Shown: positions 5,637-9,757 of the stretch, in pieces
Position numbering within the stretch: the first letter of the stretch is position 1
Layout of the letters: the number at the start of each line of letters is the position of its first letter
From: Parafannyhessea umbonata
GTDB taxonomy: Bacteria; Actinomycetota; Coriobacteriia; Coriobacteriales; Atopobiaceae
Direction of reading: 5' to 3'
Length of the DNA stretch: 64,000 bases
NCBI RefSeq assembly: GCF_900105025.1
Contig: NZ_LT629759.1
Span: 1,116,001 to 1,180,000, forward strand
Notes under the pieces: generated by a model
What the model saw: only the letters and a program-made list of their open reading frames with translations
Database searches by the model: none
What the model was told of the DNA's origin: nothing
Made by a program: the position numbers and the translations under genes

Positions 5637-5816
5637 GCAGGCTCCTCCCTCGTCGCGACGCAACTGGCCATCAGCAACTGGCCGTCGCTCAATGGTATCG
5701 CCTGACGGCCGTCTCGACGTGGGTTTATTTGGTAGATGCACCGCCGACGGACTTGTGGGTGCCGTTTGCGGATACGATGCCAATGCATCATTTACAGATT
5801 TGATTGGAAGTGCATA

Positions 5817-7457
5817 TTGGCAGACCGCCATCACCACAAGAAGGACCGCGCGGACGCGACCGCCGCTCGCGCGTCGCAGGAGGCGCCCGCGGGCGAGAAG
5901 ACCGTGGCCTTTGATCAGCTGGGCCTGAGCCGGGAAGTGCTGGACGCCGTGGCAGAGATGGGCCACACGCAGCCGACCCCCGTGCAGGCGCAGGCCATTC
6001 CCCTCGTGCTTGCGGGCAGGGACGTGCTGGCCGCGGCGCAGACCGGCACCGGCAAGACGGAGGCGTTCCTGCTTCCCACGCTCAGCCGTCTGGGACACGC
6101 CGGCGCGGGCAAGGGGCCGCTCATGCTGGTCATCACGCCCACGCGGGAGCTTGCGCAGCAGATAGACGACGTCGCGCGCACCATCTGCGCGCACACGGGT
6201 CACCGCACCGTCACGCTGGTGGGTGGCGTCGCATACGAGCCGCAGTACCAGGCGTTGGCGCGTGGCTGCGACGTGCTGGTGGCGACGCCTGGTCGTCTGC
6301 AGGACCTTCTGGACTCCGGCCACGCAAGCCTCGACCGCGTAGATGTTCTCGTTCTGGACGAGGCGGACCGCATGCTGGACATGGGCTTTCTGCCAGCCGT
6401 GAAGAAGATCGTGGCCCGAACGCCGTCCGAGAGGCAGACCCTGCTCTTCTCGGCCACGCTTGACGACGACGCCGTTGCGAGCACGCGCTCGCTCGTGCGC
6501 GACCCCGCTCACGTGAAGATCGCGCGCAAGGGCACGCCGGCGCAGACGATCGAGCAGTTTTCGCTGGGCGTGTCGCCCGAGGCGAAGCACGCCGTGCTCG
6601 CGGAGGTGCTGCGCCGCGAGGGGGCCGAGCGCGTCATCGTGTTCACGCGCGGCAAGCACCGCGCGGACGCCATCTGCCGCAAGCTGCGCAAGGCGGGCTT
6701 TGCGTGCGCGCCCATCCACGGCAACCGCACGCAGCGCCAGCGCGAGAACGCGCTGCGGAGCTTCCGCGAGGGCGCGGTGGACGTGCTGGTGGCGACGGAC
6801 GTCCTCGCGCGCGGCATCGACATCCCCGACGTGCGCTACGTGGTGAACTTCGACGTGCCCGGCGACGCGGAGGACTACATCCACCGCATTGGCCGCACCG
6901 GCCGCGCCGGCGAGTCCGGCTGGGCGCTGACCTTCGTGACGGAGGACGACTACCTGGAGCTTCGCGACGCGGAGGCGCTCATGGGCAAGGTCGTGCCGGA
7001 CTACCCCCGCGCCGAGGGCATCGACCTGGGCGCGGAGCCGCTGCGGCTTGACCCGGCGCGCGACCCGCGACAGAAGCTCCCCGGAAAGAAGGCCCGCAAG
7101 AAGATGGCCGAGGAGCGAGCCGCCCGCCGCGAGGCGCGACGCGCCGCGAGCGAGCCGACTGCGAAGGCGCATGGGACGCAGGCTACAGAGCCCGCTGCTG
7201 CCGGGGCCTTGGCTGCCGAGAGCCCGGCGAAGCCGCGGCGCCAGCGGCGCGGAGCGCGTGTCGCCCAGGCAAAGGCCGCGAATCCGAGGAGCTCGAAGCC
7301 GAAGGCCGCGAAGAGCGCACGCACGCCCCAGAAGCCGAGGCGTCGGAGTACCTCGCACGACGAGGCCATGCCCTACGGACCCGGCGGCAAGCCGAAGCGC
7401 TCCGCCGCGAAAAAGCTGAGCCGCCATCCCGGCGACCGCGGCGGCAGACGCGGGTAG
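5817..7457 (+). CDS. DEAD-box ATP-dependent RNA helicase (RhlE/CsdA-like)
   Basis: The 546-aa product has every DEAD-box helicase motif in order: Q-motif, AQTGTGKTEAF (Walker A), PTRELAQQ, LDEADRMLDMGF (DEAD), SATL, then in domain 2 RGIDIPDV and HRIGRTGRAG. It would unwind RNA duplexes in ribosome assembly or mRNA decay. The last 130 residues are Lys/Arg/Ala-rich and disordered, an RNA-binding tail usual for RhlE-type enzymes. The preferred start is TTG at 5817 because GGAAG (5806-5810) lies six bases upstream; the ATG at 5736 gives a Cys-rich leader not seen in this family. Immediately downstream are four large palindromes. Confidence 0.93.
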   Translation: MADRHHHKKDRADATAARASQEAPAGEKTVAFDQLGLSREVLDAVAEMGHTQPTPVQAQAIPLVLAGRDVLAAAQTGTGKTEAFLLPTLSRLGHAGAGKGPLMLVITPTRELAQQIDDVARTICAHTGHRTVTLVGGVAYEPQYQALARGCDVLVATPGRLQDLLDSGHASLDRVDVLVLDEADRMLDMGFLPAVKKIVARTPSERQTLLFSATLDDDAVASTRSLVRDPAHVKIARKGTPAQTIEQFSLGVSPEAKHAVLAEVLRREGAERVIVFTRGKHRADAICRKLRKAGFACAPIHGNRTQRQRENALRSFREGAVDVLVATDVLARGIDIPDVRYVVNFDVPGDAEDYIHRIGRTGRAGESGWALTFVTEDDYLELRDAEALMGKVVPDYPRAEGIDLGAEPLRLDPARDPRQKLPGKKARKKMAEERAARREARRAASEPTAKAHGTQATEPAAAGALAAESPAKPRRQRRGARVAQAKAANPRSSKPKAAKSARTPQKPRRRSTSHDEAMPYGPGGKPKRSAAKKLSRHPGDRGGRRG

Positions 7458-7514: not shown

Positions 7515-7751
7515 CTCACTACCTGACAGGAGTGCGATCTGTCAGGTAGTGAGGGGAAAATGGCTTCCGGAACCTCAAAAGCATCCCACTTTCTGACAGG
7601 AGCGCGATCTGTCAGGTAGTGAGGGCAGAGAACTCACCACTTTCCGACAGAAGCACGATCTGTCGGAAAGTGAGGCTCAAGAGACCCGTGGAACCCAAAA
7701 AAGCCCACCACTTTCTGACAGAAACGCAACCTGTCAGAAAGTGGTGGGCTT
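7515..7751. repeat. Four consecutive palindromic hairpins
   Basis: Each unit is a long inverted repeat with a 9-base loop. Unit 1 (7515-7553) has 15-base arms ending CTGACAG/CTGTCAG. Unit 2 (7587-7621) is imperfect: its left arm resembles unit 4 and its right arm unit 1. Unit 3 (7638-7672) has 13-base arms. Unit 4 (7701-7751) has 21-base perfect arms. Loops are GAGTGCGAT, GAGCGCGAT, AAGCACGAT and AAACGCAAC. Arm sequences differ between units, but the changes are matched on the opposite arm in units 1, 3 and 4, so pairing is preserved. They fill the gap between the convergent helicase gene and queD. Confidence 0.9.
7697..7751 (-). terminator. Terminator of the folate/queD operon (palindrome 4)
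   Basis: The fourth palindrome pairs 7701-7721 with 7731-7751. On the leftward strand it is followed by TTTTTT (complement of 7697-7702), making it a very strong intrinsic terminator for queD, which ends at 7813. It may also act on the rightward helicase transcript. Confidence 0.75.
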
Positions 7752-7812: not shown

Positions 7813-8238
7813 CTACTCGTCCACCAGGTATGTGGCGCAGTTCAGCGGCGTCTCGTAGCAGTCCACCCGGCTCACGGGCAGACCGCGGCCCAGAAGGACC
7901 TCCGCGAAGTTGCGCGCAAGGTTCTCCGCAGTCGTGCGGAACGGCAGCATCCTGAGGGTGAAGCCCTCGCGCTCAAGGCACGCGACGGTATCTGGCGCAA
8001 GGGAGCCCTCCTCCACCAGGAACATGTGGTCGAAGCGCGCGACCTCCTCGCGAACGATGCGCTTGAACTCGCCAAAGTCCAGTACCATGTCGCGCTCGGT
8101 CCCGTCCGTGCCAAGCGAGGCCTGCCTGATGTAGACCACCACGCGCCAGCGATGGCCGTGGAGGTTCTCGCACTTACCGTTGTAATCCGTCAGAAAGTGG
8201 GCGCCGTCGAAGCTTGCCTCGGTCTTCAGCTGGTACAC
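7813..8238 (-). CDS. queD: 6-carboxy-tetrahydropterin synthase family (QueD / PTPS-like)
   Basis: The 141-aa product belongs to the COG0720 pterin synthase family. QueD turns 7,8-dihydroneopterin triphosphate into 6-carboxytetrahydropterin for queuosine. Zinc ligands are His14 (DGAH) and His27/His29 of LHGH. Cys23 sits at the QueD nucleophile position (CxxxHGH). FDHMFL and the C-terminal ET motif complete the active site. Cys23 is followed directly by Glu24. The start is GTG (complement 8236-8238) with GGGAGGA upstream, one base after the folC stop. The gene ends the folate operon. A role replacing dihydroneopterin aldolase, known for some family members, is possible; tgt in the window supports queuosine. 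Confidence 0.88.
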   Translation of the reverse strand: MYQLKTEASFDGAHFLTDYNGKCENLHGHRWRVVVYIRQASLGTDGTERDMVLDFGEFKRIVREEVARFDHMFLVEEGSLAPDTVACLEREGFTLRMLPFRTTAENLARNFAEVLLGRGLPVSRVDCYETPLNCATYLVDE

Positions 8239-8239
8239 G

Positions 8240-9757
8240 CTAGTTCCTCCCGTCGTTCGCGGCATCGTCAAATATCTGCACCCTGGGGTGGCGGTCCGGC
8301 GCGACGCGCGGCCTCACGGGACCGGCCGCGTTCTGAACGCCCGGCCTGAGCAGCGCCGCGACCTCGCCGGCCGTGGTGATCGATCCGCACGCGACGTACG
8401 ACGTGCCCGCAAGGGCGTCCGTCGCCTCGCGCACGGACGAGAAGACCGCGTCCGGCCGCTTGCCGCACTCCTGGAAGACGCGGGCAAGGTCCTGTGCAGA
8501 AAGCGCGCGGTCCGAGGCCGTCTGCGTCACGTACACGCGCGGGAACTCCGGCGCGAGCAGGCCCACGATGCCGCGCACGTCCTTGTCCGCGAGCACGGCG
8601 CACAAAAGCGCCGGGCGCGTGGCCACGTTGGGGTCCACGCCGCGCACGGCCGTCAGGAACGTCTGGACGCTCTGCGGGTTGTGGCAAGCGTCTATGAGCA
8701 CGGGCGGGTCCGGCACCACCAGGTCGAAGCGGCCGGGCGTCGGGCACGTCACGAGGGACTGGAACAGCGCGTCGCCGTCGAGCGGGCGCCCCAGGAAAAG
8801 CTGTGCCAGCGTGACGGCGCACGCGAGGTTCGCGGCCTGGTACGCGGGCTTCAGCACGGAGAGCTCGCGGTATTCGCGGCCGTCCGGGCCCGGCGTCCGG
8901 ACGTCCACCATGAGAGGCGCGCCTATGCGGTCCGGACGCCGCGTTATGCGATACGTTGCGTGCGGCAGCCCCTCGTGCGCGCGCGGGGTGCCGGGATGCA
9001 TCTCGCCCGCGGCGTCCGAGGGGTCGGCCGGCCTCAAGAGCACGGGCGTGACGCCCTGCTCCGCGCATCGGGCGAGAAACACGTCCTCCACGCTGTCCGG
9101 CGTCGCAGTGCCAACACCCAGCACGCAGGTGCGCCCCCGCTTGATGATTGCGGCCTTCTCGCCCGCGATCTTCTCCAACGTGTCGCCCAGGATGCGCATG
9201 TGATCGAGCCCGATGCCCGTGATGGCGACGGAGCGTATGTTGTGCGCGGCGCTCGTGGCGTCCCAGCGGCCGCCCATGCCGCACTCCAGCACGCACGCGT
9301 CCACACCGGCCTCCGCGAAGACCACCATGGCCGCCACGGTCAGCACGTCGAACTCCGTTATGTCGTACGGGCGCTCGCCGGCGGCCTCGCGGCGCGCGTT
9401 CACGCGCTCGCCGGCGTAGACGGCGGCCGCGACGCCACGCGCGAACTGCGCCTCGCTCACGGGGTGGCCCGCCACCTCCATGCGCTCCGTCATGCTCACG
9501 AGCTCCGGGGAGGTGTACAGGGCGACGCGAAGCCCCTCTCCCCCAAGGATCGCCGCCGTGAAGCGCGCCGTCGAGGTCTTGCCGTTCGTGCCGGCTATCT
9601 GCACGCTCTGGAAGTGCTCGTCGGGGTTGCCCAGTTCGGCGAGCATGTCCTCCACGCTCTCGAGCATGGGCTGGATGCCAAAGCGCTTCGTGGCGGCAAG
9701 GCGCGCCATCGCGTCCTCGTAGCCGATGGAAGGTATCTGGAAGGGAACCTGGTACAT
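8240..9757 (-). CDS. folC: Bifunctional folylpolyglutamate synthase / dihydrofolate synthase
   Basis: The 505-aa product is a Mur-ligase-like enzyme that adds glutamate to dihydropteroate or tetrahydrofolate using ATP. The P-loop GTNGKTST is at 56-63, the omega-loop and ligase core include ECGMGGRWDAT, and the C-terminal domain shows IDACHNPQS. At about 505 aa it is longer than most FolC (about 430); the extra length is loops near residues 240-290 and a C-terminal tail. AAGGAG lies 11 bases before the ATG. It sits 43 bp after folE and one base before queD. Confidence 0.95.
   Translation of the reverse strand: MYQVPFQIPSIGYEDAMARLAATKRFGIQPMLESVEDMLAELGNPDEHFQSVQIAGTNGKTSTARFTAAILGGEGLRVALYTSPELVSMTERMEVAGHPVSEAQFARGVAAAVYAGERVNARREAAGERPYDITEFDVLTVAAMVVFAEAGVDACVLECGMGGRWDATSAAHNIRSVAITGIGLDHMRILGDTLEKIAGEKAAIIKRGRTCVLGVGTATPDSVEDVFLARCAEQGVTPVLLRPADPSDAAGEMHPGTPRAHEGLPHATYRITRRPDRIGAPLMVDVRTPGPDGREYRELSVLKPAYQAANLACAVTLAQLFLGRPLDGDALFQSLVTCPTPGRFDLVVPDPPVLIDACHNPQSVQTFLTAVRGVDPNVATRPALLCAVLADKDVRGIVGLLAPEFPRVYVTQTASDRALSAQDLARVFQECGKRPDAVFSSVREATDALAGTSYVACGSITTAGEVAALLRPGVQNAAGPVRPRVAPDRHPRVQIFDDAANDGRN

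Follow-up and report, generated by a model that had tools for sequence, protein, structure and literature searches.

Clustered intergenic palindromes are usually ascribed to mobility or to RNA hairpins. The parS, Noc, matS, and SlmA sites are palindromic chromosome-organising sites that are mostly single and 13–20 bp in length, and the CIRCE operator of HrcA, TTAGCACTC-N9-GAGTGCTAA, has exactly 9 bp between its arms and occurs as single copies at chaperone promoters. The closest systems described in the literature each share features with the arrays reported here: (i) REP/BIME elements are likewise intergenic imperfect palindromes of 20–40 bp, clustered and mostly 3′ of genes (PMC3733652, PMC2817692), (ii) the NIME/dRS3 elements of Neisseria also form intergenic arrays of short inverted repeats, ATTCCC-N8-GGGAAT, in which the spacer length is fixed (PMC9778887), and (iii) strong gyrase sites similarly combine a central segment with phased A/T arms, in lengths close to those seen here (PMC6379681). 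In E. coli, the gyrase motif consists of a centre of ~36 bp flanked by 47-bp arms in which G+C recurs with a 10.75-bp period, and BIME-2 palindromes are cleaved by the enzyme (PMC6379681). Of the features that define REP/BIME, NIME/dRS3, CIRCE, terminators, and IS ends, at least one per kind is lacking or left open in the arrays. The arrays are best described as a further form of clustered intergenic palindrome, set apart by a helical design; the literature searched contained no earlier report of it, which does not prove absence.

The stretch of DNA analysed (64 kb, hereafter the window) covers positions 1,116,001–1,180,000 of a 2,353,093-bp single-contig genome of the genus Parafannyhessea (Atopobiaceae). 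An earlier note on this DNA had described four inverted repeats at 7515–7751, each with a 9-nt loop; all are present, and their stems were located (Table 1). They share the core CTGACAG in units 1, 2, and 4 and CCGACAG in unit 3. Pairing is perfect in units 1, 3, and 4, while unit 2 is, as the note had it, a chimera, with a left arm identical to that of unit 4 and a right arm identical to that of unit 1. The view that only the last palindrome is a clear terminator also holds: unit 4, read on the minus strand, is the one palindrome scored as an intrinsic terminator followed by a T-run. With up to two mismatches, CTGACAG-N9-CTGTCAG matches the 64-kb window 4 times, always at this locus, where 0.30 matches would be expected (0 of 100 shuffles). 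The ortholog of unit 2 in P. umbonata has symmetrical arms (CACTAAC/GTTAGTG), and unit 3 differs from its ortholog there by two paired changes, at positions 5 and 8. This first reading of the locus missed the helical spacing, the A/T phasing of the linkers, and eight further arrays.

Table 1. Palindromic units, linkers, and neighbouring genes at the window locus (positions in the window)
Feature	Position	Strand	Description
Unit 1	7515–7553		stem 7515–7529/7539–7553, 15 bp, extended
Unit 1, 35-bp core	7517–7551		CACTACCTGACAG-gagtgcgat-CTGTCAGGTAGTG
Linker 1–2	7552–7586		35 bp; start-to-start 70 bp, 7 turns at 10.13 bp
Unit 2	7587–7621		stem 7587–7599/7609–7621
Linker 2–3	7622–7637		16 bp; spacing 51 bp, 5 turns
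Unit 3	7638–7672		stem 7638–7650/7660–7672; CCGACAG core on both arms
Linker 3–4	7673–7708		36 bp; spacing 71 bp, 7 turns
Unit 4	7701–7751		stem 7701–7721/7731–7751, 21-bp arms; 35-bp core 7709–7743 inside
Intrinsic terminator	7697–7749	-	unit 4 plus TTTTTT; serves the minus-strand PTPS gene
DEAD-box RNA helicase gene	5736–7457	+	stop codon 59 bp ahead of unit 1 core
6-Pyruvoyl tetrahydropterin synthase (PTPS, QueD-like) gene	7813–8271	-	convergent; end 69 bp from unit 4 core

Searching the genome and its relatives for the core arms, as the earlier note had proposed, revealed further arrays in the same genome and in one congener. The window's genome contains 38 copies of CACTWTCTGACAG-N9-CTGTCAGAWAGTG, all of them confined to nine intergenic arrays, with 2 to 7 units apiece, near 111, 139, 600, 1123, 1214, 1485, 1600, 1865, and 2197 kb. 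Relaxed searches for CACNNNCYGACARR-N7-YYTGTCRGNNNGTG recovered the 38 units and, in this genome, no lone units outside the nine arrays. Relative to the best dnaA match at 2,071 kb, these positions place the arrays around the chromosome. Five matches of identical score (G000 C1:1279034, 1304221, 1480847, 1812891, and 2328698), with a 314-aa frame similar to the ATPase region of DnaA, are probably the helper ATPases of a multi-copy IS21-type element.

A second Parafannyhessea genome, the array sequences of which match P. umbonata 105184, has 37 units in nine arrays with the same neighbour genes, and all nine arrays occupy identical loci in the two species. A third species of the genus has no arrays; at its examined loci (kdpE-like, rph, PNP, ldh, hisS, and aldo-keto reductase), ordinary spacers lacking the palindromes are found. 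Across 400 Coriobacteriia genomes, arrays are confined to these two related species, both gut bacteria, and two other genomes have one lone core each, at about chance level. An exact scan of 84,980 species returned nothing but the P. umbonata arrays plus single sites in a Chlorobium MAG (L047 567–601) and in Aneurinibacillus (L048 7764–7798, immediately 3′ of a gene); these look-alike palindromes were judged to be chance rather than a wider distribution. Plasmids, phages, and viral contigs yielded no match to the array sequences, and a plasmid or phage source was dismissed on this ground.

All nine array spacers are convergent or co-directional and none is divergent. The neighbours are (i) the DEAD-box helicase and PTPS genes, (ii) ldh, (iii) hisS, (iv) PNP/DUF523, (v) a KdpE-type regulator, (vi) EamA and GmrSD-like genes, (vii) rph and tRNA-Val, (viii) an aldo-keto reductase, and (ix) purH with a ZTP riboswitch, some of these names being readings of the sequence without a Pfam hit. 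Since these genes are functionally unrelated, the set does not look like a regulon. The ZTP riboswitch lies upstream of purH on the minus strand (L031 7209–7292), with the array directly adjoining. The EamA/GmrSD array appears partly decayed; it contains orphan half-sites and a perfect 32-bp palindrome, CCCGTCAGATAGTGGTACCACTATCTGACGGG, at L088 1960–1992 (the same in the L034 array), in which the half-sites are reversed in facing.

The consensus of the unit was built on 75 units, i.e., 150 half-sites, from the two species. A2, G9, and C11 are invariant in 150 of 150 half-sites and positions 1, 3, 7, 10, and 12 nearly so, positions 8 and 13 vary mildly, and positions 4–6 are variable (mostly TWT, also ACC and AAC). 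The spacer measures 9 bp in every unit. This length is common to the arrays and CIRCE, but the sequences differ and CIRCE does not form arrays; the consensus, CACTWTCTGACAG-N9, is likewise unrelated to that of dRS3. The outer bases of the spacer are R and Y, while its positions 2–3 and 7–8 are often directional (RAGNNNGAY) and non-palindromic, with a direction that is constant within many arrays. The flanks of the 75 units are symmetrical, CCT or CAC.

Because divergence over 33 orthologous unit pairs is 4.5% at core arm positions compared with 32% in the spacer and 26% in equal-length orthologous linkers, the arm core is under strong purifying selection in both species; positions 4–6 diverge by 29%. 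The idea that concerted evolution alone keeps the arms conserved was rejected, given that these variable positions are flanked by conserved blocks. Orthologous loops often remain similar where the arms differ, which disfavours replacement of whole units. The near-invariance of the arms outside positions 4–6 indicates recognition of sequence and not of structure alone.

The spacing of the units is tightly restricted. Start-to-start distances fall only at 39–41, 49–52, 61–62, 70–71, and 81 bp, 50 and 51 bp being the commonest, with no intermediate values. Fitted over 56 spacings in 18 arrays of the two species, they are multiples of 10.126 bp (95% CI 10.110–10.141, array-level bootstrap) with a largest residual of 1.75 bp and a Rayleigh R of 0.95, against a null maximum of 0.46. 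When each spacing class is counted once per locus (19 values), R is 0.96, which none of 20,000 random sets reached. The register is kept even as linker lengths change between orthologs, from 46 to 16, 66 to 46, 16 to 5, 14 to 5, and, between units 1 and 2 of the window, 35 to 46 bp in the orthologous array, i.e., by about −30, −20, −11, −9, and +11 bp. An internal 184-bp duplication in the rph array of P. umbonata (L050 4090–4490) amounts to 18 turns and an additional step in the ldh array between species to 81 bp; both preserve the register. Helical spacing points to protein-bound double-stranded DNA; the spacing, the A/T phasing of the linkers, and the conservation of the arms together indicate a selected function at the DNA level.

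The anatomy of 13-bp arms around a 9-bp core also recalls site-specific recombination sites of the lox or dRS3 style, as do the often directional core, the direction of which is kept within many arrays, and the arms that appear exchanged between units. However, the core differs among arrays and evolves fast (32%), the loci are in identical positions in both species, and recombination has no need for the helical phasing of many sites, all of which makes this reading highly improbable.

The linkers carry a second periodic signal. Measured from the palindrome centres, A and T in the 46-bp linkers gather at half-integer turns (R 0.38, null maximum 0.12), significantly in each species alone, and linkers of 26–36 bp are phased likewise (R 0.29, null maximum 0.22). 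Linkers of 14–17 bp show no A/T phasing (p 0.88), and DNA beyond the outermost units shows almost none (R 0.09, p 0.015). Linkers at different loci are just 37% alike in the better orientation. Phased A/T thus sits where bound proteins could touch only with bent DNA. Predicted intrinsic curvature, computed with wedge parameters, is raised mainly in short two-unit arrays with a 46-bp linker.

Taken together, these patterns suggest that the 35-bp palindromes are in-phase sites for a putative dimeric protein that would assemble into a cooperative nucleoprotein cluster on one face of the helix at nine loci; we place the probability of this reading at roughly 0.6. Each palindrome would be a two-fold symmetric site in which the putative dimer reads CAC and CTGACA per half-site, with the 9-bp centre as a spacer. 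Spacing by integral turns would bring the bound proteins onto one helix face, in contact with one another and forming a continuous cluster. Sites 40–51 bp apart could make contact on nearly straight DNA, while those 61–81 bp apart would require an intervening bend, which the phased A/T-rich minor grooves, found in these linkers only, may provide. Free DNA has 10.5 bp per turn; the shorter register of 10.13 bp would be compatible with a left-handed wrap like that of nucleosomes. As the neighbouring genes are functionally unrelated, the role of the putative cluster is likely to be in chromosome organisation, segregation, or local topology. The palindrome family and its nine conserved loci, the register, the A/T phasing, selection on the core, and the species distribution are direct results; the protein, its cooperativity, the wrapping, its handedness (deduced from a period shorter than 10.5 bp), and a role in organising the chromosome are inferred. 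Like the parS, Noc, matS, and SlmA sites, the arrays are sequence-specific palindromes at conserved chromosomal positions beside unrelated genes; unlike them, they set as many as seven sites of 35 bp in a helical register.

The chief rival also acting at the DNA level is gyrase wrapping, in which the arrays would be BIME-like topological sites that bind and wrap DNA gyrase 3′ of genes and remove transcription-driven supercoils, the signal for wrapping being the palindromes together with the phased A/T. The non-divergent setting of all nine spacers and the resemblance of the 35-bp unit plus 46-bp phased linker to the dimensions of the E. coli motif are consistent with this idea. Yet gyrase is universal, whereas the arrays occur in two species, and it does not specifically recognise a 26-bp palindrome, which leaves the invariant arms unexplained; its motif is degenerate and lacks such arms. 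In addition, the arrays are phased inside long linkers only, with DNA flanking the outermost units barely phased, and not on both sides of each centre, 50/51-bp spacings are too tight for 130-bp footprints, and the period is 10.13 rather than 10.75 bp. Gyrase wrapping therefore seems unlikely.

The dimer reading itself has difficulties. Simple dimer binding does not predict the covariation at positions 4–6 (see below), so that a further cause has to be invoked, either hairpin-templated repair or a role as a cruciform; a presence in just two species is odd for a core chromosome function; certain units serve also as terminators; and predicted curvature is high chiefly in two-unit arrays. It is tentatively conceivable, and rather doubtful, that the nine loci are nucleosome-like wrapping stations of the chromosome which, through a putative lineage-specific protein and bending linkers set by A/T placement, constitute an undescribed chromosome-architecture system. 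Over 75 sites in two species, the register persists across as much as 400 bp, with linker sequence free to diverge. If the dimer model is true, the arrays would offer a design for a multi-protein DNA wrap that is readable and has been tested by evolution. The model predicts that inserting 5 bp into a linker would abolish binding and that inserting 10 bp would retain it, and the presence or absence of arrays between close species provides a direct route to the putative binding protein.

The earlier note had also read the paired arm differences as compensatory changes that reflect selection for structure, in RNA or as cruciform DNA. The changes are borne out, with 13 double changes between species that keep Watson-Crick pairing against a null mean of 3.4 and maximum of 11 (right arms shuffled, 5000 rounds). 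Eleven of the 13 fall at or beside arm positions 4–6, and the excess elsewhere is not significant (2 against 0.6 expected); pairing-preserving changes are mainly confined to the part of the arm without sequence conservation. The covariation may come from hairpin-templated correction at replication, a mutational process that is already known, or from a cruciform stage. Regarding selection, a genome-wide palindrome family under selection is supported, and a role in RNA is not: with arrays oriented along the entering transcript, G·U mismatches (23) are not above A·C (32). Selection for an RNA stem is unsupported because a selected stem should show more G·U than A·C.

The same evidence bears on whether the arrays are transcribed 3′ elements, i.e., tandem RNA hairpins for termination or protection of mRNA 3′ ends. 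Eight of the nine arrays start 24–128 bp past a stop codon, the folding z-score is −8.8, the double changes are paired, and a few proximal units double as terminators, including unit 4 of the window, a good one on the minus strand. Against this, no role in RNA is known for helical spacing, arm bases 7 and 9–12 are near-invariant rather than covarying, and a T-run is absent at most other units. The L031 and L038 arrays, moreover, lie beyond terminator-like hairpins of a neighbouring gene and of tRNA-Val, respectively (T-runs and hairpins as read from sequence). Rfam covariance models matched none of the nine arrays, that of the window included, and an RNA element was rejected on this and the lack of a G·U excess. 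The RNA-hairpin explanation is very unlikely.

The suggestion of a REP/BIME-like mobile palindrome with a RAYT-type transposase did not survive comparison. Y1_Tnp (PF01797) has no match in the three congeneric genomes (G000, G001, and G002), while control genomes were positive, the two species have all nine arrays in the same fixed places, and lone copies are absent. The arrays further differ from REP/BIME in that none of the 75 units has a one-sided GTAG or CGTC tag outside the stem, in numbering 38 copies in nine clusters rather than more than 100, and in their strict helical register. From NIME/dRS3 they differ in that dRS3 flanks repeated 50–150-bp RS units, while the linkers here are non-homologous and phased, and in forming nine clusters rather than hundreds. 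A broader version, in which a mobile palindrome (of REP/RAYT, MITE, or IS256-end descent) spread and was then frozen, leaving the arrays as its relic, would accommodate the third species without arrays and one IS256-like element in P. umbonata that has CACTTTCTGACAG at its end. It is nonetheless improbable, considering the missing Y1_Tnp and lone copies, the lack of an IS256-type transposase in the window's own genome, the non-homologous linkers at different loci, the arms that are still under selection, and the related IS elements, the ends of which have in common only the outer part around GCGCACTTT. For the target-site duplication check, the empty loci of the third species are too diverged to place exact ends.

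The 13-bp identity between the unit half-site and one IS end in P. umbonata is striking but probably a coincidence, as the motif is not conserved in related IS and the window's genome has no transposase of this type; an IS256 origin was set aside as improbable. The half-site concerned, CTGTCAGAAAGTG, lies within the end of the IS256-family element in L092 (about 2576–2588; G001 C6:22075), ~25 bp past a transposase gene with an internal stop, and the opposite end of the element is GCGCACTTTGACAG.
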